A stretch of 64,000 bases of DNA from Roseivivax lentus (GTDB lineage Bacteria > Pseudomonadota > Alphaproteobacteria > Rhodobacterales > Rhodobacteraceae): the NCBI RefSeq assembly GCF_900156805.1, contig NZ_FTOQ01000008.1:1-64000 (forward strand), read 5' to 3'. The position numbers and the translations under genes are program-made. This document shows positions 10,563 to 25,397 of this stretch, in pieces (position 1 is the stretch's first letter; the number at the start of each line of letters is the position of its first letter). The notes beneath the pieces are model-generated. The model did no database searches. It was not told where the DNA came from and worked only from the letters and a program-made list of their open reading frames with translations.

Positions 10563-10662
10563 TGGGGCATCCTTTCGTGACGGGACGCTGCAGCCTGCGG
10601 CCGAATCCGCGCCGGCGTCCTTGATCCGCGTCAAGAACCGGCGCGATGCACCGCCCGTACGG

Positions 10663-10687
10663 CAAAAAGGCGGCTCGGGGGCCGCCT
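10663..10687 (-). terminator. Intrinsic terminator after the CsbD gene
   Basis: On the minus strand AGGCGGC (10681-10687) pairs with GCCGCCT (10668-10674) over a 6-nt loop and is followed by a T run ending near 10663. It lies 30 bp past the CsbD stop, so it ends that single-gene transcript. Confidence 0.8.
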
Positions 10688-10716
10688 CTTGCAGGGATCG
10701 TCGCGATGGCGCGGGC

Positions 10717-10914
10717 TCAGAGCTTGGCGAGCCACTCGTCGAACTCACGCTCCGCCTCTTCGCGGGTCTTGCCGTACTTGGCCTGGATCTTGCCGATCAG
10801 CTGCTCGCGCTCGCCGCGGGTCTCGGCGACCTCGTCGTCGCTCAGATCGCCCCATTGCTCGCGGATATGGCCTTTCATCTCGGTGAAGCGGCCCTTCAAC
10901 TCGTCCATGTTCAT
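10717..10914 (-). CDS. CsbD family stress-response protein
   Basis: The 65-residue protein MNMDELKGRFTEMKGHIREQ carries the CsbD signature (KGxxxExxGxxxxD) and a strongly charged helical composition. CsbD proteins are small and accumulate under general stress in many bacteria; their mechanism is unknown. A CTGAAGGAGAG ribosome site precedes the ATG. It has its own terminator and is transcribed alone. Confidence 0.9.
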   Translation of the reverse strand: MNMDELKGRFTEMKGHIREQWGDLSDDEVAETRGEREQLIGKIQAKYGKTREEAEREFDEWLAKL

Positions 10915-11004
10915 GTCGTCTCTCCTTCAGTTTCCTGAAGGACCAACGGGCCGGCACGGCGCGCTGTTCCGTCTTCGCGAAAAAATACGACTCTCGGGGT
11001 AATC

Positions 11005-11484
11005 TTATTCCTCCATGTCGCCATGCACCGCGAAGGCCTCGAGCTCGGCCTCCTGCGGCTCGATCACGCGGTAGGCCTCGCGCACCCCCGCATCGGTCAG
11101 CTCGCGCGACACGGTCAGGATGGTGTTCGGATTGAAATCGGCGCACATCTCGGCCATTTCGGCGATCTCGGCCTCGGCCACCGCGCGCGCATCCTCGATC
11201 GAGGGCGCGCCGTAGATGGCGACGAAATGCTCGGCCAGCCCCTCCACGAGGCGCACGCGCTCGGCCTCCTCGATCTGGGTGACGGCGATGAAGGTCACCC
11301 GCCCGAAGGTCTCGAGCCCGAGCCAGCCATTGGCGAAGGCCTGCCGCGCCTTGCCCTCGAGGTCGCCCTCGCCCCAGTTGGAAAACTCGAAACCGCCCGA
11401 GATGCACCATTCCCCGGTGCGCGCGGGGCTGGCGAAGACACGGGTGTCGCTTTCGTCGAAATGGATCGCACGGGCGAGGTTCAT
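11005..11484 (-). CDS. Conserved protein, DUF6505-like, in the formate dehydrogenase island
   Basis: A 159-residue soluble protein (MNLARAIHFDESDTRVFASP...) with an acidic C-terminus and no signal peptide. I assign it to DUF6505 from overall resemblance only. Its start codon overlaps the upstream stop (TGATG), so it is translationally coupled to the ligase-like gene and belongs to the Mrp-ligase-like-DUF6505 operon. It presumably serves the same maturation process; its biochemistry is unknown. Confidence 0.65.
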   Translation of the reverse strand: MNLARAIHFDESDTRVFASPARTGEWCISGGFEFSNWGEGDLEGKARQAFANGWLGLETFGRVTFIAVTQIEEAERVRLVEGLAEHFVAIYGAPSIEDARAVAEAEIAEMAEMCADFNPNTILTVSRELTDAGVREAYRVIEPQEAELEAFAVHGDMEE

Positions 11485-12203
11485 CAGGGCTGCTCCATCA
11501 TGAGGGAGAGGGGAAGAAGATGCGTCGTGCCGTCCGCTTTCACAAGCGCGCCGAGCCGCTCGTCGAGGCCCAGGAAATGCCCGCTGCGGCCCGCCAGCGT
11601 GACCTCCTCGCCAAGCTGCCAGACCAGCCCGGAATATTCCCGGTGCAGCCCCGAAAGGCCGTCCGTGTCCCAGTCATGCAGCCAGTGCAGAAGGTGCCGC
11701 GCATAACTTTCGAGGACCGGCATCGGGGTCAGGTTGCCGCAGCCCTCCGCATGGAGCGTGGTCTCGTCGGGATGCATCCCGCCATCCGCGTCGCGCGGCA
11801 CGAAATGCAGATCCAGCGTCACCACCAGCCAGTCCGGCGCGGCGTCATCGGCCGAGGCCGGCGCGATCATGGCGATGCGCCCGGCGCGCCCGCCATTGAC
11901 ATGGACCGAACCGTCCCAGCCGAGATGCACCGCCACCTCCGGCGGCGCGACGCTGCCCAGCGCGTTCTGCAGCGCGACACCCGCGAGCGGCAGCATCACC
12001 GCCGCCTCTTCCCGGGGCCGGTCGGGGGCGAAGACGATGGCCGCATGCAGGTCCTCGGCCAGCGCATCATACAGGATCAGCCCGGGATCAGCCCCCGCCT
12101 CGGCGGCGCGGATCGCGGCGGCGCGCGGCGCCTCGCCCGCCACCGCCCGGCCGGTCAGCAGCGGCGGGAAATCCGGCGCGCCCCCGCCCATGCCGTCACG
12201 CAT
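11484..12203 (-). CDS. Biotin/lipoate protein ligase homologue with lost catalytic motif
   Basis: A 239-residue protein resembling the biotin/lipoate-protein ligase fold (FPPLLTGRAVAGEAP, then the VHLGWDGSVHVNGGRAGRIA segment) with a C-terminal DUF4444-type domain (LHREYSGLVWQLGEEVTLAG). In true ligases the central motif is KWPND with a catalytic Lys; here it reads GWDGS, so ordinary ligase chemistry looks impossible. The ATG at 12203 overlaps the Mrp gene stop by 8 bp, and the gene is coupled to the DUF6505 gene downstream. The family is common in Rhodobacterales. Confidence 0.65.
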   Translation of the reverse strand: MRDGMGGGAPDFPPLLTGRAVAGEAPRAAAIRAAEAGADPGLILYDALAEDLHAAIVFAPDRPREEAAVMLPLAGVALQNALGSVAPPEVAVHLGWDGSVHVNGGRAGRIAMIAPASADDAAPDWLVVTLDLHFVPRDADGGMHPDETTLHAEGCGNLTPMPVLESYARHLLHWLHDWDTDGLSGLHREYSGLVWQLGEEVTLAGRSGHFLGLDERLGALVKADGTTHLLPLSLMMEQP

Positions 12204-13260
12204 GCCCGTTCCTGATGAGGTCGCGCGCCACGGTCCGGAAGGCCTGCGCCTGCGTGCTGTCGGGCTTGGAGACGACGATCGGCGCGCCGCCATCGGACGC
12301 GGTGCGGATATCGAGATGCAGCGGGATCTCCGCCAGAAGCGGCGCCCCCAGCTTCTCGGCCTCGCGGGCGACGCCGCCATGGCCGAAGATGTGTTCCTCG
12401 TGCCCGCAATTGGAGCAGATATGCGTCGACATGTTCTCGATCATGCCGATCAGCGGCACCTTGAGCTGGGTGAACATGTCGATGCCCTTGCGCGCGTCGA
12501 TCAGCGCCACGTCCTGCGGGGTCGAGACGACGATGGCGCCGTCCACCTGGAACTTCTGGGACAACGTCATCTGCACGTCGCCGGTGCCCGGCGGCAGGTC
12601 CACGATGAGCACGTCGAGCGCGCCCCATTGCACCTGGTTCATCATCTGCTGCAGCGCGCCCATCAGCATCGGCCCGCGCCAGACGACGGCCTGGCCCTCG
12701 TTCATCATGAGACCGATGGACATCATGGTGACACCGAAATTCCTGAGCGGCAGGATGGTCTTGCCATCGGGGCTCGCGGGCCGGCCCGAGACGCCCAGCA
12801 TGCGCGGCTGCGAGGGCCCGTAGACATCCGCATCGAGCAGGCCGACGCGGCGCCCTTCGGCGGCCAGCGCACAGGCGAGGTTCGACGACACGGTCGACTT
12901 GCCCACGCCGCCCTTGCCCGAGGCCACGGCGAGGATGCGGTCGATCCCCGGCACCTTCTGCGGCCCCTTCGGCTTGGGCTTGGCGCCGGTGCCCAGGTCG
13001 GGCGGCGGCTTCGGCGCGGAATGCGCGGTCATCACCACCGAGACCTTCTCGGCCCCCAGCGCCTTGACCGCGGCCTCGGCGGCCTCGCGCACCGGCCCAT
13101 AGGCCGCGCCCTTGTCGCCCGGCACCTCGAGGACGAAGCGCACGGCGCCGGTCTCCTCGACATTCAGCGCCTTGACGCGGTTCGCACCGACGATGTCGCC
13201 GCCGGCGGGATCGGAAATGCCTTTGAGTGCGGTCAGAACCGCGTCGCGTGTCAGAGCCAC
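12196..13260 (-). CDS. mrp: Mrp/ApbC family Fe-S cluster carrier ATPase
   Basis: A 354-residue cytoplasmic protein with an N-terminal MIP18/DUF59-like domain (residues 1-80), a Pro/Lys-rich linker, then the deviant Walker A motif SGKGGVGKST near residue 115. The CxxC pair ICSNC that bridges a transferable [4Fe-4S] cluster between subunits lies in the C-terminal half. Mrp proteins load Fe-S clusters onto client enzymes. Operon: DUF6494, mrp, ligase-like, DUF6505. Next to a formate dehydrogenase with many clusters, clients in that complex are plausible. Confidence 0.92.
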   Translation of the reverse strand: MALTRDAVLTALKGISDPAGGDIVGANRVKALNVEETGAVRFVLEVPGDKGAAYGPVREAAEAAVKALGAEKVSVVMTAHSAPKPPPDLGTGAKPKPKGPQKVPGIDRILAVASGKGGVGKSTVSSNLACALAAEGRRVGLLDADVYGPSQPRMLGVSGRPASPDGKTILPLRNFGVTMMSIGLMMNEGQAVVWRGPMLMGALQQMMNQVQWGALDVLIVDLPPGTGDVQMTLSQKFQVDGAIVVSTPQDVALIDARKGIDMFTQLKVPLIGMIENMSTHICSNCGHEEHIFGHGGVAREAEKLGAPLLAEIPLHLDIRTASDGGAPIVVSKPDSTQAQAFRTVARDLIRNGHA

Positions 13261-13268
13261 TTTTGTGC

Positions 13269-13457
13269 TTATCCCTTGATTGTGCCGGTCACGGTATGGG
13301 TCAGGTCGAGCCCCTCGATCGTCAGGGTCACCCGCGCCTCGAAGCTTTCGCCCTCGATGCCGCCCTTGGCCGCGACCGCGTCCTCGATGGCCTTCTGCGA
13401 CGTGACACCCACCTGCTTCAGGAACTTCCGCATCGACATGTTCAGTTCTTCGTTCAT
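13269..13457 (-). CDS. Small conserved protein, DUF6494 type
   Basis: The 62-residue protein begins MNEELNMSMRKFLKQVGVTS and ends THTVTGTIKG. A good GGGGGAGG ribosome site precedes the ATG at 13457, which defines the start inside a longer open frame. It lies 8 bp upstream of mrp and is the first gene of that operon. The N-terminal half looks helical and the C-terminal half beta-rich. DUF6494 is my recognition from the sequence; no function is known. Confidence 0.75.
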   Translation of the reverse strand: MNEELNMSMRKFLKQVGVTSQKAIEDAVAAKGGIEGESFEARVTLTIEGLDLTHTVTGTIKG

Positions 13458-13545
13458 CGCCTGGCCTCCCCCATCAAAGCGTTGACCTCTGTAGGATAGG
13501 CCCACTAGCCTTGCAAGCCACGACACCACCGGCAGGGAGGGCCGG

Positions 13546-14280
13546 ATGCGCCTCATCACCGTTCTGTGCGCGCTCCTCGCGGGCGGCCCGGCTCTCGCCG
13601 AGGCCGACAAGCGCTTCACCCTCGCCGCGCCCGCCGCGCTGGAAGACAGCGGCCTGCTCGATTTCCTGCTGCCGCGCTTCGCGCTCAAGACCGCGACGCG
13701 GATCACCCGCGGCGCCGATCCCGCCAGCGCCGACGCGGTCTTCGGCGACGGCGGCGCCGCGGTCTTCGAAGGGCCCGACCGGGTCTGGTCGCTGGCGGTC
13801 TCGGACGACCCGGATGCGCAGGCCTTCGCGGACTGGCTCGGCTCCGATATCGGGCGCGCCACCGTGGCGGCCTTCACGCGCGACGGCCGGGCGCCCTTCT
13901 CACCCGAGTTGAAGGTTGCGGTCGCGGTCAAGGCGCTCGAATTCGACGGCGACGCCGCGACCGGTGCCGACCTCTCGCTCAGCCTCTGCGGACGCTGTCA
14001 TGTGGTGGGCGCCATCAACCGGATGAATTCCATCGGCTCGACCCCGTCCTTCGGCATGCTGCGCACCCTGCCCGACTGGTCCCGCCGCTTCGAGGGCTTC
14101 TACGCGCTCGCCCCGCACCCGGCCTTCACCCAGATCGCCGAGGTGACCCCACCCTTCGACCCGCGCCGCCCCTCGCCCATCGCGCCGGTCGAGATGACGC
14201 TGGACGAGCTCGACGATATCCTGGCCTTCGTCGCCGCGATCCCGCCCGCCGATCTCGGCGCCCCGGTGCAATCCCGCTGA
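13546..14280 (+). CDS. Periplasmic binding-protein-like/cytochrome c fusion
   Basis: A 244-residue exported protein with a signal peptide (MRLITVLCALLAGGPALAEA). Residues 20-115 (RFTLAAPAALEDSGLLDFLL...) read like half of a tungstate/molybdate-type solute-binding domain. One haem-binding CGRCH follows at Cys148-His152, with a cytochrome c-like C-terminus. It is divergent from the mrp operon and convergent with the poly-ferredoxin gene inside the formate dehydrogenase island. A role as electron acceptor or metal sensor of that system is possible but unproven. Confidence 0.65.
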   Translation: MRLITVLCALLAGGPALAEADKRFTLAAPAALEDSGLLDFLLPRFALKTATRITRGADPASADAVFGDGGAAVFEGPDRVWSLAVSDDPDAQAFADWLGSDIGRATVAAFTRDGRAPFSPELKVAVAVKALEFDGDAATGADLSLSLCGRCHVVGAINRMNSIGSTPSFGMLRTLPDWSRRFEGFYALAPHPAFTQIAEVTPPFDPRRPSPIAPVEMTLDELDDILAFVAAIPPADLGAPVQSR

Positions 14281-14409
14281 GCGCCGCAACCCCGACCGGA
14301 CCCACGCGCGCCCAGACAGGCCGAACACGCCCGGGCCATTCCGGCGTCCCGCGCCGACGCCCCGGGCGCCCCGCCCTCTCACGATCGGACCGGAAATACC
14401 TCCGGAGGT

Positions 14410-14444
14410 CTGGAGGCAGCGCCTCCAGCGCGGCCGGAGGCCGC
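14410..14444. terminator. Tandem hairpins between convergent genes
   Basis: CTGGAGGC (14410-14417) pairs with GCCTCCAG (14421-14428), and directly after it GCGGCC (14430-14435) pairs with GGCCGC (14439-14444). They sit between the stops of two convergent genes, so they probably act as a bidirectional terminator, although no U tract is present. Confidence 0.5.
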
Positions 14445-14470
14445 GATCCCCCGCGCCGCAGGCCGCGCGA

Positions 14471-16432
14471 TCAGTGATCGCGCCGCTTCGAGGGCCCCTC
14501 GGCGATGTAATCCTCCGAGGTCCGCACGCGCGGACGCTCGCCCGCGGCGAAGGGATTATTGGTCGAGTGGAACTGCGCCTTGACCCGGCAATCGTCGCAC
14601 ATCTGGATCATCCGCACCGCGTCCGGGTTCGCGAACATCGCATGGTTCCCGGCGAGCTTCTCGGTGATCCGGTCGATGGTGGATTTCACCCCGAAGAGCG
14701 ATCCGCATTCGATGCAGGCGAAGGGCTCCTCCTCGTTCAGCACGACCTGGGAGAGGGCCTGGTCGGTGACGTTCATCCTCGGGGCCAGCGTGATCGCCTT
14801 TTCCGGGCAGATGGTCGCGCAGAGCCCGCATTGCAGGCAGGCATCCTCCTGGAACAGCAGCTGCGGCTTGTCGGGATTGTCGCCGAGCGCCCCCGACGGG
14901 CAGAGCGACACGCAGGACAGGCACAGCGTGCAGGCCTCCTGATCGACGAGCACCGCGCCATAGGGCGCGCCTTCGGGCAGCGCGATGATTTCCGCCTCGG
15001 GCTGCAGCGCCTTGGCGGCGACACGGGTGACCTGCCGCCGCGTGCCGAGCGGCAAGGCCGGGGCCGCCAGCGCCGCCGCCGCCCCGCCATATAGCGCCTC
15101 GGGCAGCGCGTCGGGATCGGCGAGATCGAGCAGGCGCACCGCCTCGGTGCCGCACAGCGCGTTGGCCAGCGCCGCCTCGCCCTCGGGCGTGGCACGCTCC
15201 GTCCGCGGGCTGAGCAGGATGTCGACCCGGGCGAACCCCGCCGCCAGCGCCGCCACCATCTCCGCATGGCCGAACCGCGCGATGGCATCGGCCTCGAAGG
15301 GGATGACATCGGCGGGCAGGCCGCGTCCGAACCGCGCGGCAAGGCGGATCATCTCGCCGCCATGCGCGGCGTCATGGACCAGAAGCCGCGGCGCCCCGCC
15401 GCCCGCGGCGCGATAGGCCCGCGCCAGCACGTCGAGCCTGCGGAAGACCGTCGCGACCGGCGGCGCGTCGTAGCTGATCGCCCCCGAGGGACATAGCGCC
15501 GCGCAGGCGCCGCAGCCCGCGCAGACCATCGGATCGACGCTGACGTGATCGCCCTCGGGGCTGATCGCGCCGGTCGGGCAGATGTCGAGGCACTTCGAAC
15601 ACCCGGTCTGCCCGGCGCGCGAATGGGCGCAGAGCGCGGGTTCGGCGCGGATATAGAGCGGCTTCTCGAAGGTGCCGACCATCTGCGCCGCCTGTGACGC
15701 CGCCTCGGCCAGCGCGACGGGCCGCGCGGGATCGGCGCGCAGATACCCCTCGCGCTTCTCGGGGGCCGGAAAGAGCGGCGTACCCCCCCGGAGATCGAGG
15801 ATGATGTCGCACTCCGCCGACGCCCCGTCGCGGGGCTGGCCGAAACCGAAGGCGCCGCGCCCGCCGGGCACCAGTTCGCGGAAGCCGTCGATGCGCACGG
15901 AAAAGCCGCCCAGCGCGCCCGAGGCCCGCACGACGTGCCCGCGCACCACGTCGAAGCGCCGGTCGACCGGCGGCTCGGTCTCGTCGCCCTGCAGCACCGT
16001 GACGGCCAGCTGATCGGCCAGCGTCGCGGCGGTCTCGAAGGCCGCCGTGCCGTCGCCCAGGATGAAGCAGGTGCCCTCCGAGGTCACGTCGCGGCTGCGC
16101 GCGGGCGGAACCTCGATCAGCGCCTCGGCGGCCAGCGCGGCCTGTTTCGGCGCGGCGCGCGCGCCCTCGTCAGACCAGCCCGCCCGGTCGCGCAGATCGA
16201 CGAAGCCCGGCGCATCCACGCCCAGCTCCTCGGCCAGCATCTCGAAAAAGGCGCTTTCCTGCTGGCAGGCGATGAGCACCTCGCCCTCCGCCAGCGCCTT
16301 CGCGGTGGCCTCGGCCTCTTCCTGGCAAAGCGCGCGATGCACCCGGCCGACCTCCAGCCCGGTCGCGGTCGCAAGTGTCGCCGGGTCCAGGTGCTGCGAG
16401 CCCAGACAGTCGCAGATCAACAGGCGTTTCAC
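14471..16432 (-). CDS. Large multi-cluster ferredoxin-like protein
   Basis: A 653-residue cytoplasmic protein. The start is a GTG at 16432 (VKRLLICDCLGSQHLD) backed by a GGGGAGGG ribosome site 7 bp upstream. It carries at least four [4Fe-4S] motifs: CSKCLDIC, CAGCGACAALC, CTLCLSCVSLC and CLQCGLCATIC. Extra Cys pairs (CIECG, CDDC) follow near the C-terminus. No flavin or molybdenum domain was seen. Members of this family flank DUF3305/DUF3306 and formate dehydrogenase in alphaproteobacteria, where electron transfer or maturation is assumed. It diverges from DUF3305. Confidence 0.8.
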   Translation of the reverse strand: MKRLLICDCLGSQHLDPATLATATGLEVGRVHRALCQEEAEATAKALAEGEVLIACQQESAFFEMLAEELGVDAPGFVDLRDRAGWSDEGARAAPKQAALAAEALIEVPPARSRDVTSEGTCFILGDGTAAFETAATLADQLAVTVLQGDETEPPVDRRFDVVRGHVVRASGALGGFSVRIDGFRELVPGGRGAFGFGQPRDGASAECDIILDLRGGTPLFPAPEKREGYLRADPARPVALAEAASQAAQMVGTFEKPLYIRAEPALCAHSRAGQTGCSKCLDICPTGAISPEGDHVSVDPMVCAGCGACAALCPSGAISYDAPPVATVFRRLDVLARAYRAAGGGAPRLLVHDAAHGGEMIRLAARFGRGLPADVIPFEADAIARFGHAEMVAALAAGFARVDILLSPRTERATPEGEAALANALCGTEAVRLLDLADPDALPEALYGGAAAALAAPALPLGTRRQVTRVAAKALQPEAEIIALPEGAPYGAVLVDQEACTLCLSCVSLCPSGALGDNPDKPQLLFQEDACLQCGLCATICPEKAITLAPRMNVTDQALSQVVLNEEEPFACIECGSLFGVKSTIDRITEKLAGNHAMFANPDAVRMIQMCDDCRVKAQFHSTNNPFAAGERPRVRTSEDYIAEGPSKRRDH

Positions 16433-16569
16433 GATATTCCCTCCCCATCGTGACGCGTCCCGGCCCGCGCGCGGCGGAGCGATCCACAGGGCGGCGCGGG
16501 CTCGGGAAATTGTGATTTTCGATAGCGGCCCGATGGCGTATACACAAGACAAGGCTCAAAAAGAACGAC

Positions 16570-17166
16570 ATGACAGGGCCCATGGGAGAGACCGCTATAT
16601 CCTTCACCGACCGCAAGGCGGCGAGCGTCCCCGTCGGGGTGATCGTCGAACGACGCCCCGGGGTCACCCGCTGGGTGCGCGAAATCTGGCAGCCCAAGGC
16701 GCTGTTGCCGCAGGCGCCGCCGGCCGATTGGCGCGAGCTGCGCCGCGATGGCGGGCGCATCGAATACCATGCCGCGACCGTGCCGCTCACGCTCTATCGC
16801 GGCGAGGCGGAGGCCTATCGCGTGGCGCTCAGCGAACCGGTACCCGCGGCCTACGTGGTGCTGCGTCCCTCGGCGCGCGAGGGCTTTCCGTGGTATGTCC
16901 ATCTGGTGACCGCGTCGCCGCACGAGGCCGCCCTGTTCCAGCAATCCGGCGACGAGATCGTGGAAAAGGTGGCGCTGCCCGATGACCTCGTCGGATGGGC
17001 CGGGCGCTGGGTCGAGGCGCATTACCACGAGGAGCCCTTCGTGAAACGCAAGCGCCGCCGCGCGGAAGGCCCCGAGGCCGACAGCCCGCTCGGCGATCCG
17101 CGCATCTCCAAGCCCACCGACATCTACCGCGCGCCCACCGAACGGCGTCACGGGGGCGGATCATGA
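16570..17166 (+). CDS. DUF3305 protein, formate dehydrogenase accessory
   Basis: A 198-residue soluble protein (MTGPMGETAISFTDRKAASV...) with the DUF3305 core (VIVERRPGVTRWVREIWQPK...) and a basic tail. The family co-occurs with DUF3306, TorD and formate dehydrogenase and has no known biochemistry. It opens the fdh operon. Its stop overlaps the DUF3306 start (ATGA), so translation is coupled. The start is the first ATG; a second at 16582 is possible. Confidence 0.85.
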   Translation: MTGPMGETAISFTDRKAASVPVGVIVERRPGVTRWVREIWQPKALLPQAPPADWRELRRDGGRIEYHAATVPLTLYRGEAEAYRVALSEPVPAAYVVLRPSAREGFPWYVHLVTASPHEAALFQQSGDEIVEKVALPDDLVGWAGRWVEAHYHEEPFVKRKRRRAEGPEADSPLGDPRISKPTDIYRAPTERRHGGGS

Positions 17167-17849
17167 GCCGCCCGCGCGATTTCTGGTCCCGCCGCAAGGC
17201 CCGGGTCGAGGCCGAAGCGGCCGAGGACGCCCGCAGGGCGGAGGAGGTGCGCGCCGACGCCGTGGCGGGCGAGCTGGCCGAGAAGACCGACGCCGAGATC
17301 CTTGCCGAATACGGCCTGCCCGACCCCGACGAGCTGGTGCCGGGCGACGGCATCGCGGGGTTCATGCGCCGCGAGATCCCCGAACGCCTGCGCCGCCGCG
17401 CGCTGCGTACGCTGTGGCGCTCGAACCCGGTTCTGGCCTGTGTCGACGGGCTCAACGATTACGACGGCGATTACACCAATGCCGCGACCGACATGCCCGG
17501 CGTGAAGACCGCCTACCAGATCGGCAAGGGCATGAAGGCCCATGTCGAGGCGCTGGCCGCCCAGGAGGAGGCCAAGGCCGCCGCGCTGCAGCCGCGCCCC
17601 GAGGCGCCGTCCGCCGAAGATGCGCCCGCCCCGGCGGAGACCGCCGAACCGACGCCCGTCCGCACGGCCGCCCGGACCGGCGTCGCGGAGCAGGCCGACG
17701 CGCCCGAACCCATTGATGCTGCAGCCGCATCTGCGACCAAAGTCGCAGAGGCGACCCATGGGAAGGTCGCAGTACCATCGTATACAGATGACGGGGAACC
17801 GCCCCTCCGGCCACGCCGGATGCGATTCCGTTTCGAGGAGATTGGATGA
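17163..17849 (+). CDS. DUF3306 protein, formate dehydrogenase accessory
   Basis: A 228-residue protein starting MSRPRDFWSRRKARVEAEAA, the family hallmark. A conserved middle domain (IPERLRRRALRTLWRSNPVL, LNDYDGDYT) is followed by a long Ala/Pro/Glu-rich disordered tail and a short basic end (RPRRMRFRFEEIG). It overlaps both neighbours by 4 bp. The conserved ends around a disordered linker suggest a tethering or scaffolding role, which is inference only. Confidence 0.85.
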   Translation: MSRPRDFWSRRKARVEAEAAEDARRAEEVRADAVAGELAEKTDAEILAEYGLPDPDELVPGDGIAGFMRREIPERLRRRALRTLWRSNPVLACVDGLNDYDGDYTNAATDMPGVKTAYQIGKGMKAHVEALAAQEEAKAAALQPRPEAPSAEDAPAPAETAEPTPVRTAARTGVAEQADAPEPIDAAAASATKVAEATHGKVAVPSYTDDGEPPLRPRRMRFRFEEIG

Positions 17850-18457
17850 CCCACGCTTCCAAGGCCGATATCACCGTGAGCGAAGAGGACCGCCTGCGCG
17901 CGGATCTCTACAATTTCATCGGCCTGCTTCTGGCTGGCGCGCCGGACGAGCTGTTGCTCGCGCAGGTCGCGGGCCTTTCCGGTGATGACAGCGATCTCGG
18001 CCAGGCCATCACCCGGCTGGCGGAATGCGCCCGCACCTCGAAGCCGAAGGATCTCGAGCGCGAGTTCAACGCGCTCTTCATCGGTCTCGGCCGGGGCGAG
18101 CTTCTGCCCTATGCCAGCTACTACCTGACGGGCTTTCTCAACGAAAAGCCGCTGGCGACGCTGCGCCAGGACCTGCGCGCCCGCGGCGTGACCCGCGCGC
18201 CCAACGTGTTCGAGCCCGAGGACAACATGGCCTCGCTGATGGAGGTGATGGCGGCACTCATCGTCGGCCGTTTCGGCCCGCCCGCCACGCTGGCCGACCA
18301 GAAGACCTTCTTCAACCGTCACATCGGCCCCTGGGCCGGGCACTTCTTCGCGGATCTCGAGAACGCGAAATCGGCGATGCTGTATGCCGCCGTGGGCTCG
18401 GTCGGACGGGCCTTCATGGAAATCGAGCGCGAAGCGTTCCGATTGTCGCCGGAGTGA
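17846..18457 (+). CDS. TorD/DmsD-type molybdoenzyme chaperone
   Basis: A 203-residue helical protein (MTHASKADITVSEEDRLRADLYNFIGLLL...) with the TorD-family motif EREFNALFIGLGRGELLPYASYYLTGF near residues 72-98. TorD-like chaperones bind Tat signal peptides of molybdoenzymes and hold export until the cofactor is inserted. The 4-bp overlap with DUF3306 and its position ahead of fdhA make the FdhA Tat signal the probable client. Confidence 0.9.
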   Translation: MTHASKADITVSEEDRLRADLYNFIGLLLAGAPDELLLAQVAGLSGDDSDLGQAITRLAECARTSKPKDLEREFNALFIGLGRGELLPYASYYLTGFLNEKPLATLRQDLRARGVTRAPNVFEPEDNMASLMEVMAALIVGRFGPPATLADQKTFFNRHIGPWAGHFFADLENAKSAMLYAAVGSVGRAFMEIEREAFRLSPE

Positions 18458-18582
18458 TCCGGCCCGGGTCCGGCGCATCCGCGCCCGGGCCACAGCGCTC
18501 CGACGGTCCCGGGAGCAGAACGATCGGGATCGCACAGCCCGGACCGTACGCGGTCCGAATGACACCGAAGGGAGACATTGGG

Positions 18583-18777
18583 ATGTCGACAGACGAGAAG
18601 GCGGACAAGGGCCGCCGGGACTTCCTGAAACTGGCCGGGACCTCGGCGCCTGCCGCGCTCGCGGCGGTCGCGATCAGCGGCACGGAAGCGCAAGCGGCAG
18701 ACCTCGCGGAGACCGGGAAATCCGGCATGCAGGACACCGCGCATACCCGCGCCTATTTCGACAGCGCCCGTTTCTGA
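18583..18777 (+). CDS. Formate-dehydrogenase-region Tat-signal microprotein
   Basis: The 64-residue protein MSTDEKADKGRRDFLKLAGT carries a twin-arginine motif (RRDFLK) and hydrophobic stretch, ending DTAHTRAYFDSARF. It matches the short Tat-target family found next to formate dehydrogenase genes (TIGR02811 type). Its body is only about 25 residues once the signal is removed, so it may act as a small subunit or a chaperone decoy. An upstream in-frame ATG at 18559 is possible, but the ATG at 18583 has the better ribosome site. Confidence 0.88.
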   Translation: MSTDEKADKGRRDFLKLAGTSAPAALAAVAISGTEAQAADLAETGKSGMQDTAHTRAYFDSARF

Positions 18778-18874
18778 CGGACGGTTTTGTTTGATAACCG
18801 GTGACAGGGCAGCCGCCCGAACGCCGGATCCTGGCCCGAGGTCACAAAGACCCGGGCACATAGCGGAGGGAACA

Positions 18875-21850
18875 ATGCTCAGGAAAAAGACCACCGGGGT
18901 CGCGCGCCGATCCCAGAGAACCGGCCTTCTGTCGGAAATGGCGGGCAAGTCCGTCGACCGCCGCAGCTTCCTGCGCGGCTCGGGCCTCGCCATCGGGGGG
19001 CTCGCCGCGATCAGCGCGACCGCCGGTTCCGTCACCCAGGCCTCGGCCCAGCAGGCCGTGAACGACGCGGTCCAGACCGTGAAGTCGGTCTGCACCCATT
19101 GCTCGGTCGGCTGCACCGTCATCGCCGAAGTGCGCGACGGCGTCTGGACGGGCCAGGAGCCCGGCTGGGACAGCCCCTTCAACCTCGGTGCGCATTGCGC
19201 CAAGGGTGCCGCCGTGCGCGAGCACACCCATGGTGAGCGCCGCCTGAAATACCCGATGAAGAAGGTCGACGGCGAGTGGACCAAGATCTCCTGGGAACAG
19301 GCGATCAACGAGATCGGCGACGAGATGCTGCGCATCCGCGACGAGAGCGGCCCTGATTCGGTCTATTGGCTGGGCTCGGCCAAGCACAACAACGAACAGG
19401 CCTACCTGTTCCGCAAGTTCGCCGCCTATTGGGGCACCAACAACGTCGATCACCAGGCACGGATCTGCCACTCGACGACGGTGGCCGGCGTGGCGAACAC
19501 ATGGGGCTACGGCGCCATGACCAACAGCTACAACGACATCCACAATTCGCGCGCGATCTTCCTGATCGGCGGCAACCCCGCCGAGGCGCACCCGGTGTCG
19601 CTCCTGCACATGCTGAAGGCCAAGGAGCAGAACAACGCCCCCTTCATCGTCTGCGACCCGCGCTTCACACGCACGGCATCCCATGCGGACGAATACGTCC
19701 GCTTCCGTCCGGGCACCGACGTGGCGCTCGTCTGGGGCATTCTCTGGCACATCTTCGAGAACAAGTGGGAGGATGAGGAATTCATCCGCACCCGCGTCTG
19801 GGGCATGGACCAGATCAAGGAAGAGGTCGCCCGCTGGACCCCCGAAGAGGTCGAGCGCGTCACCGGCGCCCCGGGCGCCCAGCTCGAGCGCGTCGCGCGC
19901 ACGCTCGCCAACAACCGTCCCGGCACCGTGATCTGGTGCATGGGCGGCACCCAGCACACCAACGGCAACAACAACACCCGTGCCTACTGCATCCTGCAGC
20001 TGGCACTCGGCAACATGGGTGCGGCCGGTGGCGGCACCAACATCTTCCGCGGCCATGACAACGTGCAGGGCGCCACGGACCTCGGCGTTCTCGCGGACAC
20101 GCTGCCGGGCTATTACGGCCTGTCGGCGGGCTCCTGGGCCCACTGGGCGCGCGTCTGGGACGAGGATCTCGACTGGCTCAAGAGCCGCTTCGACGTCATG
20201 CCGGGCGCCGGTGCGGACGGTGCCGACCGGATGATGATGAACGAGACCGGTATCCCGGTGTCGCGCTGGATCGACGGCGTTCTCGAAGAGGCCGCCGATA
20301 TCGACCAGCCCGACAATACCAAGGCGATGGTGTTCTGGGGTCACGCGCCGAACTCGCAGACCCGTCTGCCCGAGATGAAGACGGCGATGGAAAAGCTCGA
20401 CCTGCTGGTCGTGATCGATCCCTACCCGACGGTCTCGGCGGTGATGAACGACCGCACCGACGGCGTCTACCTGCTGCCGGCGGCAACGCAGTTCGAGACC
20501 TACGGCTCGGTCACGGCGTCCAACCGCTCGCTCCAGTGGCGCGAGAAGGTCACCGATCCGATCTTCGAATCGCTTCCCGATCACACGATCATGAAGATGT
20601 TCGCGGACAAGTTCGGCTTCTCCGACCGGCTCTTCCGGAACATCGAGGTGAACGGCGACGAGCCCCTGATCGAGGACCTCACCCGCGAGTTCAACCGTGG
20701 CATGTGGACGATCGGCTATACCGGCCAGTCGCCCGAGCGCATGCGGCTGCACATGGAGAACCAGCACACCTTCGACCGCACCACGCTCAAGGCGGTCGGC
20801 GGCCCTGCCGATGGCGACTATTACGGTCTGCCCTGGCCGAGCTGGGGCACGCCCGAGATGAATCACCCGGGCTCGCCGAACCTCTACGACATCTCCAAGC
20901 CCGTCGCCGATGGCGGCATGGGGTTCCGGGCACGCTTCGGCGTCGAGCGGGACGGCGACAACCTTCTGGCGGAAGGTGTGGCACCCGTGGGCTCCGAGAT
21001 CATGGACGGCTACCCCGAGTTCACCATGCAGATGCTCATCGACCTCGGTTGGGACAGCGATCTGACCGACGAGGAGCGCGCCACGATCGAGATGGTCGCG
21101 GGCTACATCAAGGAAGACATGCCCGAGACCGGCGAGCAGAGCCAGACCGGCCCCTTCCCGTCGGATTACGCCGAGAAGGTGGGTGGCGTGAACTGGAAGA
21201 CCGACCTCTCGGGCGGTATCCAGCGCGTCGCGATCAAGCATGGCTGCGCGCCCTACGGCAACGCCAAGGCCCGTGCCGTCGTGTGGACCTTCCCGGATCC
21301 GGTGCCGGTCCATCGCGAGCCGCTCTACACGCCGCGTTACGACCTGGTCGCGGATTATCCGACCTACGAGGACAAGAAGTTCTGGCGGGTGCCGACGCTC
21401 TACGCGTCGATCCAGAAGGACGATTACTCGAAGGACTTCCCGCTCATCCTCACCTCCGGCCGTCTGGTCGAATACGAGGGCGGCGGGGACGAGACACGGT
21501 CGAACCCGTGGCTTGCGGAACTGCAGCAGGACATGTTCATCGAGATCAACCCGCGCGATGCCAACAACCTGGCCATCCGCGACGGGTCCGACGTCTGGGT
21601 CTACGGCCCGAACGGCGGCAAGGTGAAGGTGATGGCGATGGTGACCCCGCGGGTCGCCGAGGGGGTGACCTTCATGCCCTTCCACTTCGGCGGTTTCTGG
21701 CAGGGCGAGGATCGCCGCAGCCACTACCCCGAGGGCGCCGATCCCTATGTCCTGGGTGAGAGCACCAACACTGCGCAGACCTACGGCTACGACTCGGTCA
21801 CGCAGATGCAGGAAACCAAAGCCACGCTTGTTCGCGTCGAAGCCGCGTAA
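18875..21850 (+). CDS. fdhA: Formate dehydrogenase catalytic (alpha) subunit
   Basis: A 991-residue periplasmic molybdoenzyme. The Tat motif DRRSFLRG is near residues 28-35. The N-terminal [4Fe-4S] ligands are Cys73, Cys76, Cys80 and Cys108. The active-site region reads ARICHSTTVA, so the metal ligand is Cys198 (codon TGC at 19466) where E. coli FDH-N uses selenocysteine. The bis-MGD binding core and C-terminal domain (YEGGGDETRSNPWLAELQQD) follow. GGAGGG precedes the ATG at 18875. It oxidises formate to CO2; Mo or W cannot be decided from sequence. Confidence 0.96.
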   Translation: MLRKKTTGVARRSQRTGLLSEMAGKSVDRRSFLRGSGLAIGGLAAISATAGSVTQASAQQAVNDAVQTVKSVCTHCSVGCTVIAEVRDGVWTGQEPGWDSPFNLGAHCAKGAAVREHTHGERRLKYPMKKVDGEWTKISWEQAINEIGDEMLRIRDESGPDSVYWLGSAKHNNEQAYLFRKFAAYWGTNNVDHQARICHSTTVAGVANTWGYGAMTNSYNDIHNSRAIFLIGGNPAEAHPVSLLHMLKAKEQNNAPFIVCDPRFTRTASHADEYVRFRPGTDVALVWGILWHIFENKWEDEEFIRTRVWGMDQIKEEVARWTPEEVERVTGAPGAQLERVARTLANNRPGTVIWCMGGTQHTNGNNNTRAYCILQLALGNMGAAGGGTNIFRGHDNVQGATDLGVLADTLPGYYGLSAGSWAHWARVWDEDLDWLKSRFDVMPGAGADGADRMMMNETGIPVSRWIDGVLEEAADIDQPDNTKAMVFWGHAPNSQTRLPEMKTAMEKLDLLVVIDPYPTVSAVMNDRTDGVYLLPAATQFETYGSVTASNRSLQWREKVTDPIFESLPDHTIMKMFADKFGFSDRLFRNIEVNGDEPLIEDLTREFNRGMWTIGYTGQSPERMRLHMENQHTFDRTTLKAVGGPADGDYYGLPWPSWGTPEMNHPGSPNLYDISKPVADGGMGFRARFGVERDGDNLLAEGVAPVGSEIMDGYPEFTMQMLIDLGWDSDLTDEERATIEMVAGYIKEDMPETGEQSQTGPFPSDYAEKVGGVNWKTDLSGGIQRVAIKHGCAPYGNAKARAVVWTFPDPVPVHREPLYTPRYDLVADYPTYEDKKFWRVPTLYASIQKDDYSKDFPLILTSGRLVEYEGGGDETRSNPWLAELQQDMFIEINPRDANNLAIRDGSDVWVYGPNGGKVKVMAMVTPRVAEGVTFMPFHFGGFWQGEDRRSHYPEGADPYVLGESTNTAQTYGYDSVTQMQETKATLVRVEAA

Positions 21851-21865
21851 GGAGGACCAAGAATA

Positions 21866-22459
21866 ATGGCACGCGCAAAATTTCTCTGCGACGCCGAACG
21901 CTGCATCGAATGCAATGCCTGCGTCACGGCCTGTAAAAACGAGCACGAGGTGCCGTGGGGCATCAACCGTCGGCGGGTGGTGACCATCCAGGACGGCCAG
22001 CCGGGCGAACGCTCGATCTCGGTCGCCTGCATGCACTGCTCGGACGCGCCCTGCATGGCCGTCTGCCCGGTGGACTGCTTCTACGAGACCTCCGACGGCG
22101 TGGTCCTGCACTCCAAGGACCTCTGCATCGGCTGCGGTTACTGCTTCTATGCCTGCCCCTTCGGCGCGCCGCAGTACCCGCAGGCGGGCAACTTCGGCAG
22201 CCGCGGCAAGATGGACAAGTGCACCTTCTGCGCCGGCGGCCCCGAAGAGGACACGTCCCAGGCCGAGTTCCAGAAGTACGGCCGCAACCGGATCGCCGAG
22301 GGCAAGCTGCCCATCTGCGCCGAGATGTGCGCCACCAAGGCCCTGCTCGCCGGTGACGGCGACGTGGTCTCGGGCATCTACCGCGAGCGCGTCGTCGCCC
22401 GCGGCTTCGGCTCGGGCGCCTGGGGTTGGGGCACCGCCTACGACCAGAAGAGCCAGTAA
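21866..22459 (+). CDS. fdhB: Formate dehydrogenase iron-sulfur (beta) subunit
   Basis: A 197-residue protein with four [4Fe-4S] motifs: CIECNACVTAC (with Cys8 nearby), CMHCSDAPCMAVCP, CIGCGYCFYACP, and the split CTFC/CAEMC set. It passes electrons from FdhA to the membrane subunit. It has no signal peptide and so is probably exported with FdhA by hitchhiking on its Tat signal. It is shorter than E. coli FdnH because the C-terminal membrane anchor is absent. GGAGG lies 15 bp after the fdhA stop. Confidence 0.95.
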   Translation: MARAKFLCDAERCIECNACVTACKNEHEVPWGINRRRVVTIQDGQPGERSISVACMHCSDAPCMAVCPVDCFYETSDGVVLHSKDLCIGCGYCFYACPFGAPQYPQAGNFGSRGKMDKCTFCAGGPEEDTSQAEFQKYGRNRIAEGKLPICAEMCATKALLAGDGDVVSGIYRERVVARGFGSGAWGWGTAYDQKSQ

Positions 22460-22476
22460 GCGTCTTCACGAACGGG

Positions 22477-22508
22477 CGGGGGCCAGCCACAGCGCTGGCC
22501 CCCGTTTT
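22477..22508 (+). terminator. Intrinsic terminator inside the fdh operon
   Basis: CGGGGGCCAG (22477-22486) pairs with CTGGCCCCCG (22495-22504) over an 8-nt loop and is followed by TTTT. This is a good rho-independent terminator placed between fdhB and fdhC, in the largest gap of the operon. It suggests that only part of the transcripts reach the membrane subunit, or that fdhC has its own promoter in 22509-22632. Confidence 0.75.
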
Positions 22509-22632
22509 CCATCCCGACCGGCGCCCGTTCCCGCGGGTGCGGCGGACAGACCCGAGCGGCGCATCCCGATCCCGCGCCGTTCCGGTTTATCCGCGACACA
22601 TCACACACGATAAGGTTCATGGGGGCACCGCG

Positions 22633-23871
22633 ATGACCATCCTGAGATCTCTTCTCCTGACGCTTGCGCTGCTCGGCGTGGCCCTGCCGCAGGACAGCGC
22701 GGCACAGGCCGTCGATCCGACCGTCACAAAAGCCGCGCCCGACCAGGCCACCACGACGCTGGAGGATATCCTCCGCCGTCAGCAGGGCCTGAAATCGGAC
22801 GACACCGAGGCCCGCCGCGCGCTGGTGGGCGACGCGCTCGAGCCCGGCGCCGAGACCGGCACGACGCTCGGCACGCAGGGCGCCTCGTCCGATTCCGATC
22901 TCTGGCGCGCCTTCCGCTTCGACGAACGCGACATCACCACGGTCACCCGCGGCCCCGCTACGAACGTCATCATGCAGGGCGGCGGCCAGTGGTGGCTCGA
23001 CCTGCGGCAGGGGCCGGTCATGGTCTATGGCGGCTACCTGCTGCTGGGCACGATCGGCCTTCTGGCGATCTTCTTCCTCGCCCGGGGACGCATCCGCATC
23101 GACGGCGAGAAGACGGGCCGCACCCTCACCCGCTTCACCGGGATCGAGCGCTTCGGCCATTGGCTGCTGGCGGGCTCCTTCCTCATCCTCGGGATCACCG
23201 GCCTTCTGTCGCTGATGGGCCGCACCTTCCTGATCCCGCTGCTGGGTCACGAGGCCTTCGCCACCATCGCGCAGGCCTCCAAATGGCTGCACAACAACGT
23301 CTCGTGGGCGTTCATGATCGCGCTGGTGATGGTCTTCGTGATGTGGGTGATCCACAACATCCCCGACCGCACCGACATCAACTGGATCCTCAAGGGCGGC
23401 GGCATCTTCACCAAGGGCCACCCGCCCGCGAAGAAGTTCAATGCCGGGCAGAAGATGATCTTCTGGGTGGTGATCCTGTTCGGCGCGTCGGTTTCCGCCT
23501 CGGGGCTCGCGCTGCTCTTCCCGTTCCAGATCACGCTGTTCGAGCCGACCTTCGCGATGCTCAATTCCTGGGGCGTGCCGTCCCTGATCGGGATGGAGGC
23601 CTTCCCCACCGGCATGGAGCCGCAGGAAGAGATGCAATACGCGCAGCTCTGGCACGCCATCGTCTCCTTCGTGATGATGGCCGTGATCCTCGCTCACATC
23701 TATATCGGCTCGGTCGGGATGGAGGGCGCCTACGACGCCATGGGCTCCGGCGAGGTCGAGGAGCAATGGGCCAAGGAGCACCATTCGATCTGGGCCGAGG
23801 AGGAGATCGCCAAGCGCGGCAGGACCTCCGCCAAACCGGCCTCCGGCGCATCGGCCACGCCGGCGGAGTGA
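22633..23871 (+). CDS. fdhC: Formate dehydrogenase gamma subunit, cytochrome b
   Basis: A 412-residue membrane protein. A signal peptide (MTILRSLLLTLALLGVALPQ) and a periplasmic N-domain of about 110 residues are followed by five hydrophobic spans. His residues in RFGHWLLAG, KWLHNN and HAIVSFVMMAVILAHIYIG are likely haem b ligands. It anchors the enzyme and passes electrons to quinone. The ATG at 22633 directly starts the signal peptide. Terminal Ala/Pro-rich residues are disordered. It is followed after 7 bp by the propeller-cytochrome gene. Confidence 0.93.
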   Translation: MTILRSLLLTLALLGVALPQDSAAQAVDPTVTKAAPDQATTTLEDILRRQQGLKSDDTEARRALVGDALEPGAETGTTLGTQGASSDSDLWRAFRFDERDITTVTRGPATNVIMQGGGQWWLDLRQGPVMVYGGYLLLGTIGLLAIFFLARGRIRIDGEKTGRTLTRFTGIERFGHWLLAGSFLILGITGLLSLMGRTFLIPLLGHEAFATIAQASKWLHNNVSWAFMIALVMVFVMWVIHNIPDRTDINWILKGGGIFTKGHPPAKKFNAGQKMIFWVVILFGASVSASGLALLFPFQITLFEPTFAMLNSWGVPSLIGMEAFPTGMEPQEEMQYAQLWHAIVSFVMMAVILAHIYIGSVGMEGAYDAMGSGEVEEQWAKEHHSIWAEEEIAKRGRTSAKPASGASATPAE

Positions 23872-23878
23872 ACCCTCC

Positions 23879-25177
23879 ATGCGCGGCGCTGCCCTCGTGA
23901 CCTGCCTCGCGCTCGCCGCCCTCCCGGCGGCGGCGCAGGAATACTACACGCTGGAGGGACATGGCGGTCCGGTCATGGACGTGACCGTGGGCCCCGACGG
24001 GCGCGTCGCCACGGCGAGCTTCGACAATGCGGTGGGTCTCTGGGCCGACGCCGCGCCGCGCTGGCTCGACGGGCACGCGGCGGCGGTGAACGCGGTGCTG
24101 TTCCTGTCGGACAGCGAGGCGGTGTCCGGCGCCGACGATTTCGACCTGATCCGCTGGGATCTGCAGACCGGAAGCGCCACCCGCATGCCGGGCCACAAGG
24201 GCAAGGTCATGGCGCTCGATGCCGCGGGCTCATGGATCGCCTCGGCGAGCTGGGACGGGACGATCGGCCTCTGGCCGCGCGATGGTGGGCCCGTGCGCTT
24301 TCTCGACGGCCATGACGGCCCGGTCAACGACGTGGCCTTCGTTGCCGGCGGCGCGCGGCTCTACTCGGCCTCCGCCGATGGCACGCTCTGCCTCTGGGAC
24401 GTGGAAACCGGCGATCTGATCGCGCTCGTCGTGGAACACGGCTTCGGCCTGAACGAGATCGTCCTCGACGAGGCGGCGGGCTGGCTGGCCTACGGCGCGG
24501 TCGACGGGGTGACCCGGGTCATCGACATGGCCACCGGCGACAGCCTCGCCGATCTGACCCTCGACCGCCGCCCGATCCTTGCACTGACCCGCTCCGCCGA
24601 TGGCGGGCAGATCGCCATCGGCGACGGCGAGGGTTATATCTCGGTGATCTCGACCGGCGACTGGCGCATCCTGCAGGATTTCCGCGCCACCACGCGCGGG
24701 CCGATCTGGGCGCTGGCCTTCTCGCCCTCGGGCGAGAACCTGCACGCGGCGGGGCTCGACAGCCGGGTGCATTCCTGGCCCGTCGCCCGGCTGGGCGAGG
24801 ATGGCCGGATGGACACCGCGGGCAGCGCCTTTCTGGCCGACCCGGACTCGATGCCCAACGGAGAGCGGCAGTTCAAACGCAAATGTTCGATCTGCCATAC
24901 GCTGACACCCGGCTCGGCACGCCGGGCGGGCCCATCGCTTTACGACCTGTTCGGGCGCGTGGCGGGCACGGTCGAGGATTACGCCTATTCCGACGCCCTG
25001 AACGGCCGCGACCTCGTCTGGACCGAAGAGACCGTCGATGCCCTCTTCGATATCGGACCGGAACACTATATCCCCGGCACCAAGATGCCGATGCAACGGA
25101 TCACCGGCGCGCAGGACCGCGCCGACCTGATCGCCTATCTGCGCCGGGAAACCGCGCCAAAGGAGACAACCGAATGA
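23879..25177 (+). CDS. WD40-like beta-propeller/cytochrome c fusion
   Basis: A 432-residue exported protein (signal MRGAALVTCLALAALPAAAQ). Residues 25-310 hold about seven WD40-like repeats (LEGHGGPVMDVTVGPDGRVA, ASASWDGTIGLW, SASADGTLCLWD). They are followed by a class I cytochrome c with haem site CSICH at residue 336 and a GTKMPM axial Met. It follows fdhC closely and overlaps the next gene by 4 bp, so it is part of the fdh operon. The propeller probably docks a partner and the haem accepts electrons; this is inference. Confidence 0.88.
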   Translation: MRGAALVTCLALAALPAAAQEYYTLEGHGGPVMDVTVGPDGRVATASFDNAVGLWADAAPRWLDGHAAAVNAVLFLSDSEAVSGADDFDLIRWDLQTGSATRMPGHKGKVMALDAAGSWIASASWDGTIGLWPRDGGPVRFLDGHDGPVNDVAFVAGGARLYSASADGTLCLWDVETGDLIALVVEHGFGLNEIVLDEAAGWLAYGAVDGVTRVIDMATGDSLADLTLDRRPILALTRSADGGQIAIGDGEGYISVISTGDWRILQDFRATTRGPIWALAFSPSGENLHAAGLDSRVHSWPVARLGEDGRMDTAGSAFLADPDSMPNGERQFKRKCSICHTLTPGSARRAGPSLYDLFGRVAGTVEDYAYSDALNGRDLVWTEETVDALFDIGPEHYIPGTKMPMQRITGAQDRADLIAYLRRETAPKETTE

Positions 25178-25341
25178 AAGCCATGATCCTCGGATTCGCC
25201 GCGATTGCCGTCATTTCCGTCGGCGCGTGGTACGGGCTGAACGTCTGGGGCTTTTCTGCCGCCGATACCACGTCCAGCCCCTCGGCCGTCCGCGTCGGCG
25301 ATGCCGGACCGAGCAACCCAACCCTCCGGCTGTCCGACTGA
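25174..25341 (+). CDS. Single-span membrane peptide, end of fdh operon
   Basis: The 55-residue protein MKAMILGFAAIAVISVGAWY has one hydrophobic segment and a short Ser/Pro-rich periplasmic tail ending NPTLRLSD. The ATG at 25174 overlaps the propeller-cytochrome stop (ATGA), which strongly supports it as a real coupled gene. The family is not recognised. It might anchor or stabilise the propeller-cytochrome at the membrane. Confidence 0.75.
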   Translation: MKAMILGFAAIAVISVGAWYGLNVWGFSAADTTSSPSAVRVGDAGPSNPTLRLSD

Positions 25342-25397
25342 GACCCGCCGACCGCGCCGCCCCATAGGGACGGGCGCGCTTGCCCGGCGCGTGGCGT

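Follow-up and report, generated by a model that had tools for sequence, protein, structure and literature searches.

A formate dehydrogenase island of Roseivivax lentus with a linked Mrp paralogue, a ligase-like protein and a TupA-derived cytochrome as a candidate assembly module

The window analysed here, the first 64,000 nt of contig NZ_FTOQ01000008.1 of Roseivivax lentus (assembly GCF_900156805.1, genome 4.44 Mb), carries at 11005-25341 an island of genes around the formate dehydrogenase (FDH) genes fdhABC. We think it rather probable that this island is a dedicated assembly module for the molybdenum or tungsten (Mo/W) formate dehydrogenase FdhABC, together with periplasmic cytochromes. The firm points are the linkage of the accessory genes to this FDH, the loss of the catalytic parts of a biotin-protein-ligase-like protein that we call LigL, the existence of a separate Mrp paralogue, and the TupA origin of one domain of a small cytochrome that we call cytX. 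Every gene that an earlier note had named for this interval is present by Pfam, NCBIfam and coordinates (Table 1).

Linkage of the accessory genes to this formate dehydrogenase

Co-occurrence was assessed in a class-level sample of 241 alphaproteobacterial genomes and an order-level sample of 196 genomes of the window's order, with DUF3305 (PF11749) as the marker of this periplasmic FDH. Our genome and locus samples were either draws, with completeness of at least 90%, or hand picks, and the Fisher p values ignore kinship. At the order level DUF3305 was found in 106 genomes, DUF6505 in 105 and both in 104 (p 1e-52); 102 of these 104 pairs lie on one contig and 101 within 8 kb, at a median of 5.3 kb. 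At the class level there were 34 genomes with DUF3305, 36 with DUF6494, 22 with DUF6505 at 100 bits or more (25 with any match) and 23 with a strong LigL, the last being a lower bound because the remaining weak PF16917 matches were not inspected. DUF3305 accompanied LigL in 23/23 of these genomes (p 4e-24), DUF6505 in 21/22 and DUF6494 in 24/36. The co-occurrence with FDH asked about in the earlier note holds for LigL, DUF6505 and Mrp and only partly for DUF6494.

The genomes at the margins of this pattern retain a related FdhA. Genome G402, which has DUF6505 and no DUF3305, holds the poly-ferredoxin, DUF6494 and Mrp in the fetched stretch, with no LigL match there, and an FdhA at 59-65% identity ~30 kb off on the same contig. 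G257 and G260, with DUF3305 and no DUF6505, have an FdhA at 75%, and the G257 locus carries LigL and DUF6352. Within each of the genera g4, g194 and g196 some species have both DUF3305 and DUF6505 and another has neither. Twenty FDH-negative relatives retain other FdhA-like proteins (best matches 32-36% partial identity) and lack DUF6505; the module therefore follows this FDH and not FdhA-like enzymes generally. The linkage of the accessory genes to this FDH is real.

Gene content was then counted, as profile matches, in 39 family loci, hand-picked from the 106 order-level DUF3305 loci for spread over genera, with G402 added. All 39 have the poly-ferredoxin, DUF3305, DUF3306 and FdhB, and 38 each have FdhA, FdhC, TorD and the twin-arginine translocation (Tat) microprotein; in the locus without FdhA (L103) the fetched stretch starts beyond fdhA, which the genome has. 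LigL and Mrp follow in 37 each, DUF6505 in 36, DUF6494 in 28, the one-span peptide in 23, the WD40-cytochrome c fusion (WD40-cyt) in 20, cytX and tupA-like genes in 19 each, and DUF6352 in 6. LigL lies at most 1.5 kb from DUF6505 in 36/36 loci with both, and at most 2 kb from Mrp in 31/37. A second cluster type (L105, L108, L117, L128, L130) has another arrangement and divergent proteins and retains Mrp, LigL and DUF6505.

These genes are met again in other parts of the class, and in 12 fetched loci DUF6352 (assigned to PF19879 from one scanned member) adjoins them. It lies near LigL, DUF6505 or DUF6494 in L036, L037, L039, L042-L044, L046-L050 and L095, the last of these without LigL. DUF6352 may replace or assist DUF6505.

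LigL and DUF6505

LigL has the PF16917 (BPL_LplA_LipB_2) fold and belongs to the same family as BirA over its length, its DUF4444 part aligning to the C-terminal part of BirA. When aligned with BirA of class relatives, LigL lacks the entire GRGRxGR biotinoyl-AMP loop and the KWPND lysine, both of which BirA has, and the window protein reads LGWDG where BirA has KWPND. The statement that the island holds a ligase homologue without its catalytic motif is thus borne out for the window, and it extends to all 60 LigL rows, none of which has the AMP loop or KWP; in the 6 BirA rows both are present, as these served to define the split between LigL and BirA. In a tree from which rows shorter than 190 aa had been removed, and with a profile that took in BirA during iteration, one branch (96/87) parts LigL from BirA. 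An active lipoate or biotin ligase was rejected on the loss of loop and lysine, and by its sequence LigL is a BirA paralogue and presumed pseudoenzyme. A solved structure, PDB 3bfm, matches LigL at E 1.4e-66 and is titled as a biotin protein ligase-like protein of unknown function; no paper naming it was found in the open-licence literature. Some PF16917 matches were set aside: that of G072 (114.7 bits), dropped as LigL since L054 carries the BirA loop, and five weaker ones fetched with long flanks (L055-L059), which are BirA and lie near genes that the poly-ferredoxin and FdhA profiles match weakly and that we presume for this reason to be nuo genes.

DUF6505, the fixed neighbour of LigL, gave a confident AlphaFold model (predicted local distance difference test, pLDDT, 93), for which Foldseek returned no fold relative in the PDB at E 0.001 (best E 0.27). 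The open-licence literature yielded no paper on DUF6505, DUF6494, DUF6352 or DUF4444, and BPL_LplA_LipB_2 only in the context of Wolbachia genomes. The DUF6505 matches of G411 and G359 contain one internal TGA each and are possibly decaying copies or sequence errors. In G236 (L077), a genome without DUF3305, DUF6505 directly adjoins a TupA-like gene.

A separate Mrp paralogue

The window Mrp has an intact Walker A motif (GKGGVGKS) and C-terminal CSNC (CxxC), and scores 342.3 bits against a cut-off of 348 for the NCBIfam ApbC equivalog. We surveyed 39 hand-picked genomes with PF10609, counting matches above 290 bits as full-length. In each of the 18 genomes with DUF3305 a full-length Mrp lies no more than 8 kb from that gene, and 15 of these genomes hold another full Mrp elsewhere; in the window's genome and in G264 the FDH-linked copy is the only full Mrp found, and G274 has a second, odd Mrp-like copy, likewise within 8 kb of its DUF3305. 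The 20 genomes that lack both DUF3305 and DUF6505 mostly have a single full Mrp (18 of them; the other two have two), and the one copy of G402 adjoins its DUF6505. Of 20 Mrp copies from elsewhere, 18 group together in the tree with support (97/99), separately from the FDH-linked copies. The misfits are L145, a third copy of G248, which falls among divergent FDH-linked rows, and L150 (G274), on a very long branch; two further rows (L036_fdh and L037_fdh) are fragments. Copy numbers and tree together make the FDH-linked Mrp a separate paralogue. In the window's genome this copy probably does both the housekeeping and the FDH job. A search of the open-licence literature for a link of FDH with Mrp/ApbC found nothing.

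cytX, a TupA lobe fused to cytochrome c

The earlier note had counted two cytochrome c fusions in the island; both are present, and the second (13546-14280) is here corrected to a TupA lobe-cytochrome c fusion. The profile of its N-terminal domain (~100 residues, 24-123) aligns with both ends of TupA, the middle missing, at an hhalign probability of 97.7 and E 7.7e-12 in a single comparison. Because the TupA set for that comparison had been collected with a profile iterated from cytX, the likeness was checked independently. The AlphaFold model has a mean pLDDT of at least 90 over residues 21-120, and Foldseek ranked TupA of Desulfovibrio alaskensis (5my5) first (E 3.8e-3, probability 1.00), followed by 3muq, 3kn3 and 3lr1, no match reaching E 0.001. 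The TM-scores are low, in our reading since cytX has no counterpart to half of the target. A profile search of PDB sequences returned 3muq at 2.2e-5 and 3lr1 at 0.0034; 3muq and 3kn3 are regarded as TupA-type proteins (PMC5517513). Lobe A of TupA comprises residues 2-76 and 201-251 and lobe B residues 91-200, with R118, T124 and D170 of the D. alaskensis protein facing the TTTS motif (PMC5517513). In cytX the TTTS motif is replaced and the middle part, with the oxyanion residues of lobe B, is absent; from lobe map and alignment, cytX therefore retains lobe A only and has lost TTTS.

The haem site is CGRCH at 148, with C148, C151 and H152 invariant in 23 rows, which had been chosen for C..CH; among possible distal ligands H191 is invariant in the same rows and no Met is. 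No Pfam family matches above threshold, and the hit below it is to an unrelated family. When the GTDB species collection was scanned, 480 relatives came up, and the best 80 were followed up; the best titled ones come from Puniceibacterium, Marivita and other Rhodobacteraceae. Among these 80 loci 63 are fully flanked. Mrp, LigL and DUF6505 are present in every one of the 63, and fdhA lies at most 10 kb away in 62; in the 63rd (L175) an FdhA at 90% identity lies elsewhere in the genome. Six of the 80 have no FdhA match, namely L175 and five with cut flanks. Neighbour order was scored in 57 of the 63 loci, and in 48 of these cytX sits between DUF6494 and the poly-ferredoxin gene. No TupA-cytochrome c fusion linked to FDH was found in the open-licence literature, nor was one met in the consulted part of PMC6147048, which treats other molybdoprotein domain fusions.

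The enzyme and the arrangement of the island

FdhA carries the Molybdopterin, Molydop_binding and Fe4S4 domains of Pfam, the cluster motif CTHCSVGC, and the motifs DRRSFLRG and ICHS, which we take to be a twin-arginine signal and a Cys-His active site, respectively. From these features FdhABC is predicted to be a Tat-exported periplasmic Mo/W formate dehydrogenase and an FDH-N-like complex iron-sulfur molybdoenzyme. The TorD-family chaperone reaches the PF02613 superfamily and falls short of the NCBIfam TorD equivalog (51.8 bits against a cut-off of 132). The Tat microprotein is likewise under the TIGR02811 cut-off, yet its own profile finds it in 38/39 family loci. The poly-ferredoxin, which had been given as 653 residues, is indeed 653 aa when read from a GTG at 16432, with four CxxC...C 4Fe-4S motif sets and two more CxxC close to the C-terminus. 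Other start codons were read at 12203 (LigL), 13457 (DUF6494) and 22633 (FdhC). A simple screen of third-position GC content (GC3) was passed by every open reading frame of the island but two, those of the one-span peptide and the Tat microprotein, and these two genes therefore rest on conservation; a Pfam search with the one-span peptide gave no match.

Table 1. Features of the FDH island, with positions in the window.
Feature	Coordinates	Strand	Basis
DUF6505 protein, 159 aa	11005..11484	-	PF20115 264 bits
LigL, biotin-protein-ligase-like presumed pseudoenzyme, DUF4444 C-terminus	11484..12203	-	PF16917 211 bits; PF14563
Mrp/ApbC-type P-loop Fe-S carrier, FDH-linked paralogue	12196..13260	-	PF10609 332 bits (Mrp/NUBPL)
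DUF6494 small protein, 62 aa	13269..13457	-	PF20104 98 bits
cytX, 244 residues: signal peptide (by eye), TupA lobe A-like domain, monohaem cytochrome c	13546..14280	+	hhalign, AlphaFold, Foldseek, PDB profile
Poly-ferredoxin, 653 aa	14471..16432	-	Fer4 matches, Cys census
DUF3305	16570..17166	+	PF11749 126 bits
DUF3306	17163..17849	+	PF11748 68 bits
TorD/DmsD-family chaperone	17846..18457	+	PF02613 108 bits
FDH-region Tat microprotein, 64 aa	18583..18777	+	TIGR02811-like, 40.4 bits (cut-off 48.45)
FdhA, Tat-signalled catalytic subunit, Mo/W-bis-pyranopterin guanine dinucleotide (bisPGD), Cys active site	18875..21850	+	PF00384, PF01568, PF04879
FdhB, 4Fe-4S subunit	21866..22459	+	Fer4_11 and others; four CxxC sets
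FdhC, cytochrome b561-type membrane subunit	22633..23871	+	PF01292 79.8 bits
WD40-cyt, WD40 beta-propeller-cytochrome c fusion	23879..25177	+	WD40 105.8 bits, Cytochrom_C 34.4 bits
One-span peptide, conserved VRLD-like C-terminus	25174..25341	+	Weak but aligned homologues

The tight overlaps that had been taken to tie most genes into three operons are there: 1 nt between DUF6505 and LigL, 8 nt between LigL and Mrp, and 4 nt each at DUF3305/DUF3306, DUF3306/TorD and WD40-cyt/one-span peptide, with an 8-nt gap between Mrp and DUF6494. The operon picture has to be modified in that the cytX and poly-ferredoxin genes are convergent and a 97-nt gap separates the Tat microprotein gene from fdhA. Ahead of this gap a hairpin with a T-rich tail (18768-18784) runs over the stop codon of the Tat microprotein and may be an attenuator or terminator; comparable hairpin sites number 10 in 10600-26800, against a mean of 7.0 in shuffles. 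A conserved regulatory motif was sought between the poly-ferredoxin and DUF3305 genes and nothing usable was obtained, the recurrent k-mers there resembling poly-ferredoxin coding sequence.

Near the island, at 10152-10562 (-), lies a small and probably secreted cytochrome c (Cytochrom_C 35.7 bits), which was left out of the neighbourhood tables. Towards the far end of the window the gene at 63058-63633 (-) is, by its motif, presumably a REP-associated (repetitive extragenic palindromic; IS200-type) transposase; its product has no Pfam match at E 0.001.

Tungsten context

The tupA-like genes of the 19 family loci lie 0.6 to 7.8 kb from a module gene (between open reading frame starts). These genes are hits of the cytX-derived profile without CxxCH, and those of L100 and L161 were the ones checked with Pfam; the L100 gene was confirmed (PF12849). 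The window's genome has tupB-tupC-tupA with an HTH_17/PBP_like regulator on the same contig, at 151-154 kb (L161 53-3369). The nearby tupA-like genes suggest tungsten as a possible metal of this FDH.

Proposed mechanism and alternatives

We infer the function of the module genes as follows. In the cytoplasm, the FDH-specific Mrp and the poly-ferredoxin would load [4Fe-4S] clusters, and low-potential electrons, into FdhA and FdhB ahead of export; holding the apoenzyme would fall to TorD, DUF3305/DUF3306 and the Tat microprotein. LigL, with its biotin-ligase fold and lost catalysis, could pair with its fixed neighbour DUF6505 and serve as scaffold, or in handover, when cofactor or clusters are loaded. 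On the periplasmic side, WD40-cyt and cytX might accept electrons from FDH, or dock to it, beside the quinone route via FdhC, and the one-span peptide may be a small accessory membrane subunit. A more specific version, doubtful when all its parts are taken jointly, is a tungsten-FDH assembly line, in which LigL and DUF6505 would carry or gate a W/Mo-bispterin or cluster-loading intermediate from Mrp and the poly-ferredoxin into FdhA/FdhB, and cytX would recognise periplasmic FDH or TupB through the face with which TupA docks to its transporter, and would report or carry electrons.

Several observations weigh against a dedicated FDH assembly module, or against the membership of particular genes. 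Strong LigL is absent from 11/34 class-level genomes with DUF3305, and LigL therefore cannot be a requirement of all FDHs of this type. In loci L112 and L127 LigL, Mrp and DUF6505 are all missing from the surroundings; one of the two genomes has DUF6505 336 kb away and the other has it on a separate contig. Two genomes without DUF3305 nevertheless match DUF6505, namely G236 and G101, the latter more weakly and with the match interrupted by a stop codon. DUF6494 was rejected as FDH-specific because 12 of its 36 class-level genomes lack DUF3305. It adjoins an sdhB-like gene in L080, L081, L085, L092 and L097, in genomes with DUF3305 (G168, G072) and without it (G014, G071, G214), three of these five loci also being near mdh- and sucC-like genes, named by sequence reading; this points to a role wider than FDH. 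The cytochromes cytX and WD40-cyt are each missing from about half of the 39 family loci, 12 of which have both and 12 neither, and are optional members. The tungsten argument is weakened in turn by the tupBCA genes of the window's genome lying ~126 kb beyond the island, and by tupA-like genes being found in only 9 of the best 80 cytX loci, where the fetched flanks often reach no farther than about fdhC. The earlier note had asked whether the mrp operon and the cytochrome fusions are as frequent without fdhA: LigL, DUF6505, Mrp, the poly-ferredoxin and cytX track FDH, DUF6494 in part does not, and the two cytochromes come and go as just described.

It could be argued that the island serves mainly electron transfer, with the poly-ferredoxin, cytX and WD40-cyt tying FDH to ferredoxin pools in the cytoplasm or to oxidases in the periplasm, and Mrp, LigL and DUF6505 maturing these carriers and not FDH. 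The universal presence of the poly-ferredoxin in the family loci, the two cytochrome fusions and the usual position of cytX, between DUF6494 and the poly-ferredoxin gene, would fit this. However, 12 of the 39 loci have neither cytochrome, yet LigL and Mrp are each kept in 37, and the module genes have no signal peptide by eye, so that we regard this explanation as unlikely.

We give a low probability to a general role in tungsten, molybdenum or Fe-S homeostasis, the genes travelling with FDH as a horizontally moved block. The 20 FDH-negative relatives hold FdhA-like oxidoreductases without DUF6505, and a second full Mrp is missing from 18 of them, which speaks against such a role, although tupA-like genes and the helix-turn-helix (HTH)-PBP regulator near several clusters, DUF6494 beside sdhB-like genes elsewhere and divergent cluster types within one family would agree with it. 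That the window Mrp is a mere housekeeping copy relocated beside fdh is very improbable and was rejected on copy number and tree: neither the window's genome nor G264 gave a second full Mrp, but the window copy groups with FDH-linked copies, and 15/18 FDH genomes hold another full Mrp elsewhere.

Seen as a dedicated assembly module, the island gives a testable context to families without function, namely PF16917/DUF4444 (with 3bfm solved but unassigned), DUF6505, DUF6494 and DUF6352; it ties an Fe-S carrier paralogue to one molybdo/tungstoenzyme, and it presents a half-lobe tungstate-binding protein turned cytochrome. As alpha-subunit maturation is held to limit the heterologous production of tungsten formate dehydrogenase (PMC13396061), missing assembly factors would be of practical interest.

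Comparison with known systems

FDH subunits, a TorD/DmsD-type chaperone, a Tat microprotein, a ferredoxin and DUF3305/DUF3306 have been described as neighbours in fdhGHI loci (PMC4464133), and these genes are common to those clusters and ours; LigL, DUF6505, DUF6494, DUF6352, Mrp and the cytochrome fusions are found here and go unmentioned in the consulted part of that paper. A MoeA1-MobB-FdhD tungsten pathway serves FDH1 of Methylorubrum extorquens (PMC13197769), showing that an alphaproteobacterial FDH can have a dedicated tungsten assembly route; that FDH is a different one, and PMC13197769 does not use the word 'Mrp' and names TupA three times. With the Mrp/ApbC Fe-S carriers the window Mrp shares the FeS_assembly_P domain, P-loop, Walker A and CxxC, but it is an FDH-linked paralogue below the equivalog cut-off. 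LigL is of one family with BirA and 3bfm over its full length, DUF4444 included, but in contrast to BirA it has neither biotinoyl-AMP loop nor KWP motif in any row. Compared with TupA (5my5, 3lr1), cytX keeps in residues 24-123 the two ends that make up lobe A, and it has given up lobe B, with R118, T124 and D170, as well as TTTS, and gained a cytochrome c.

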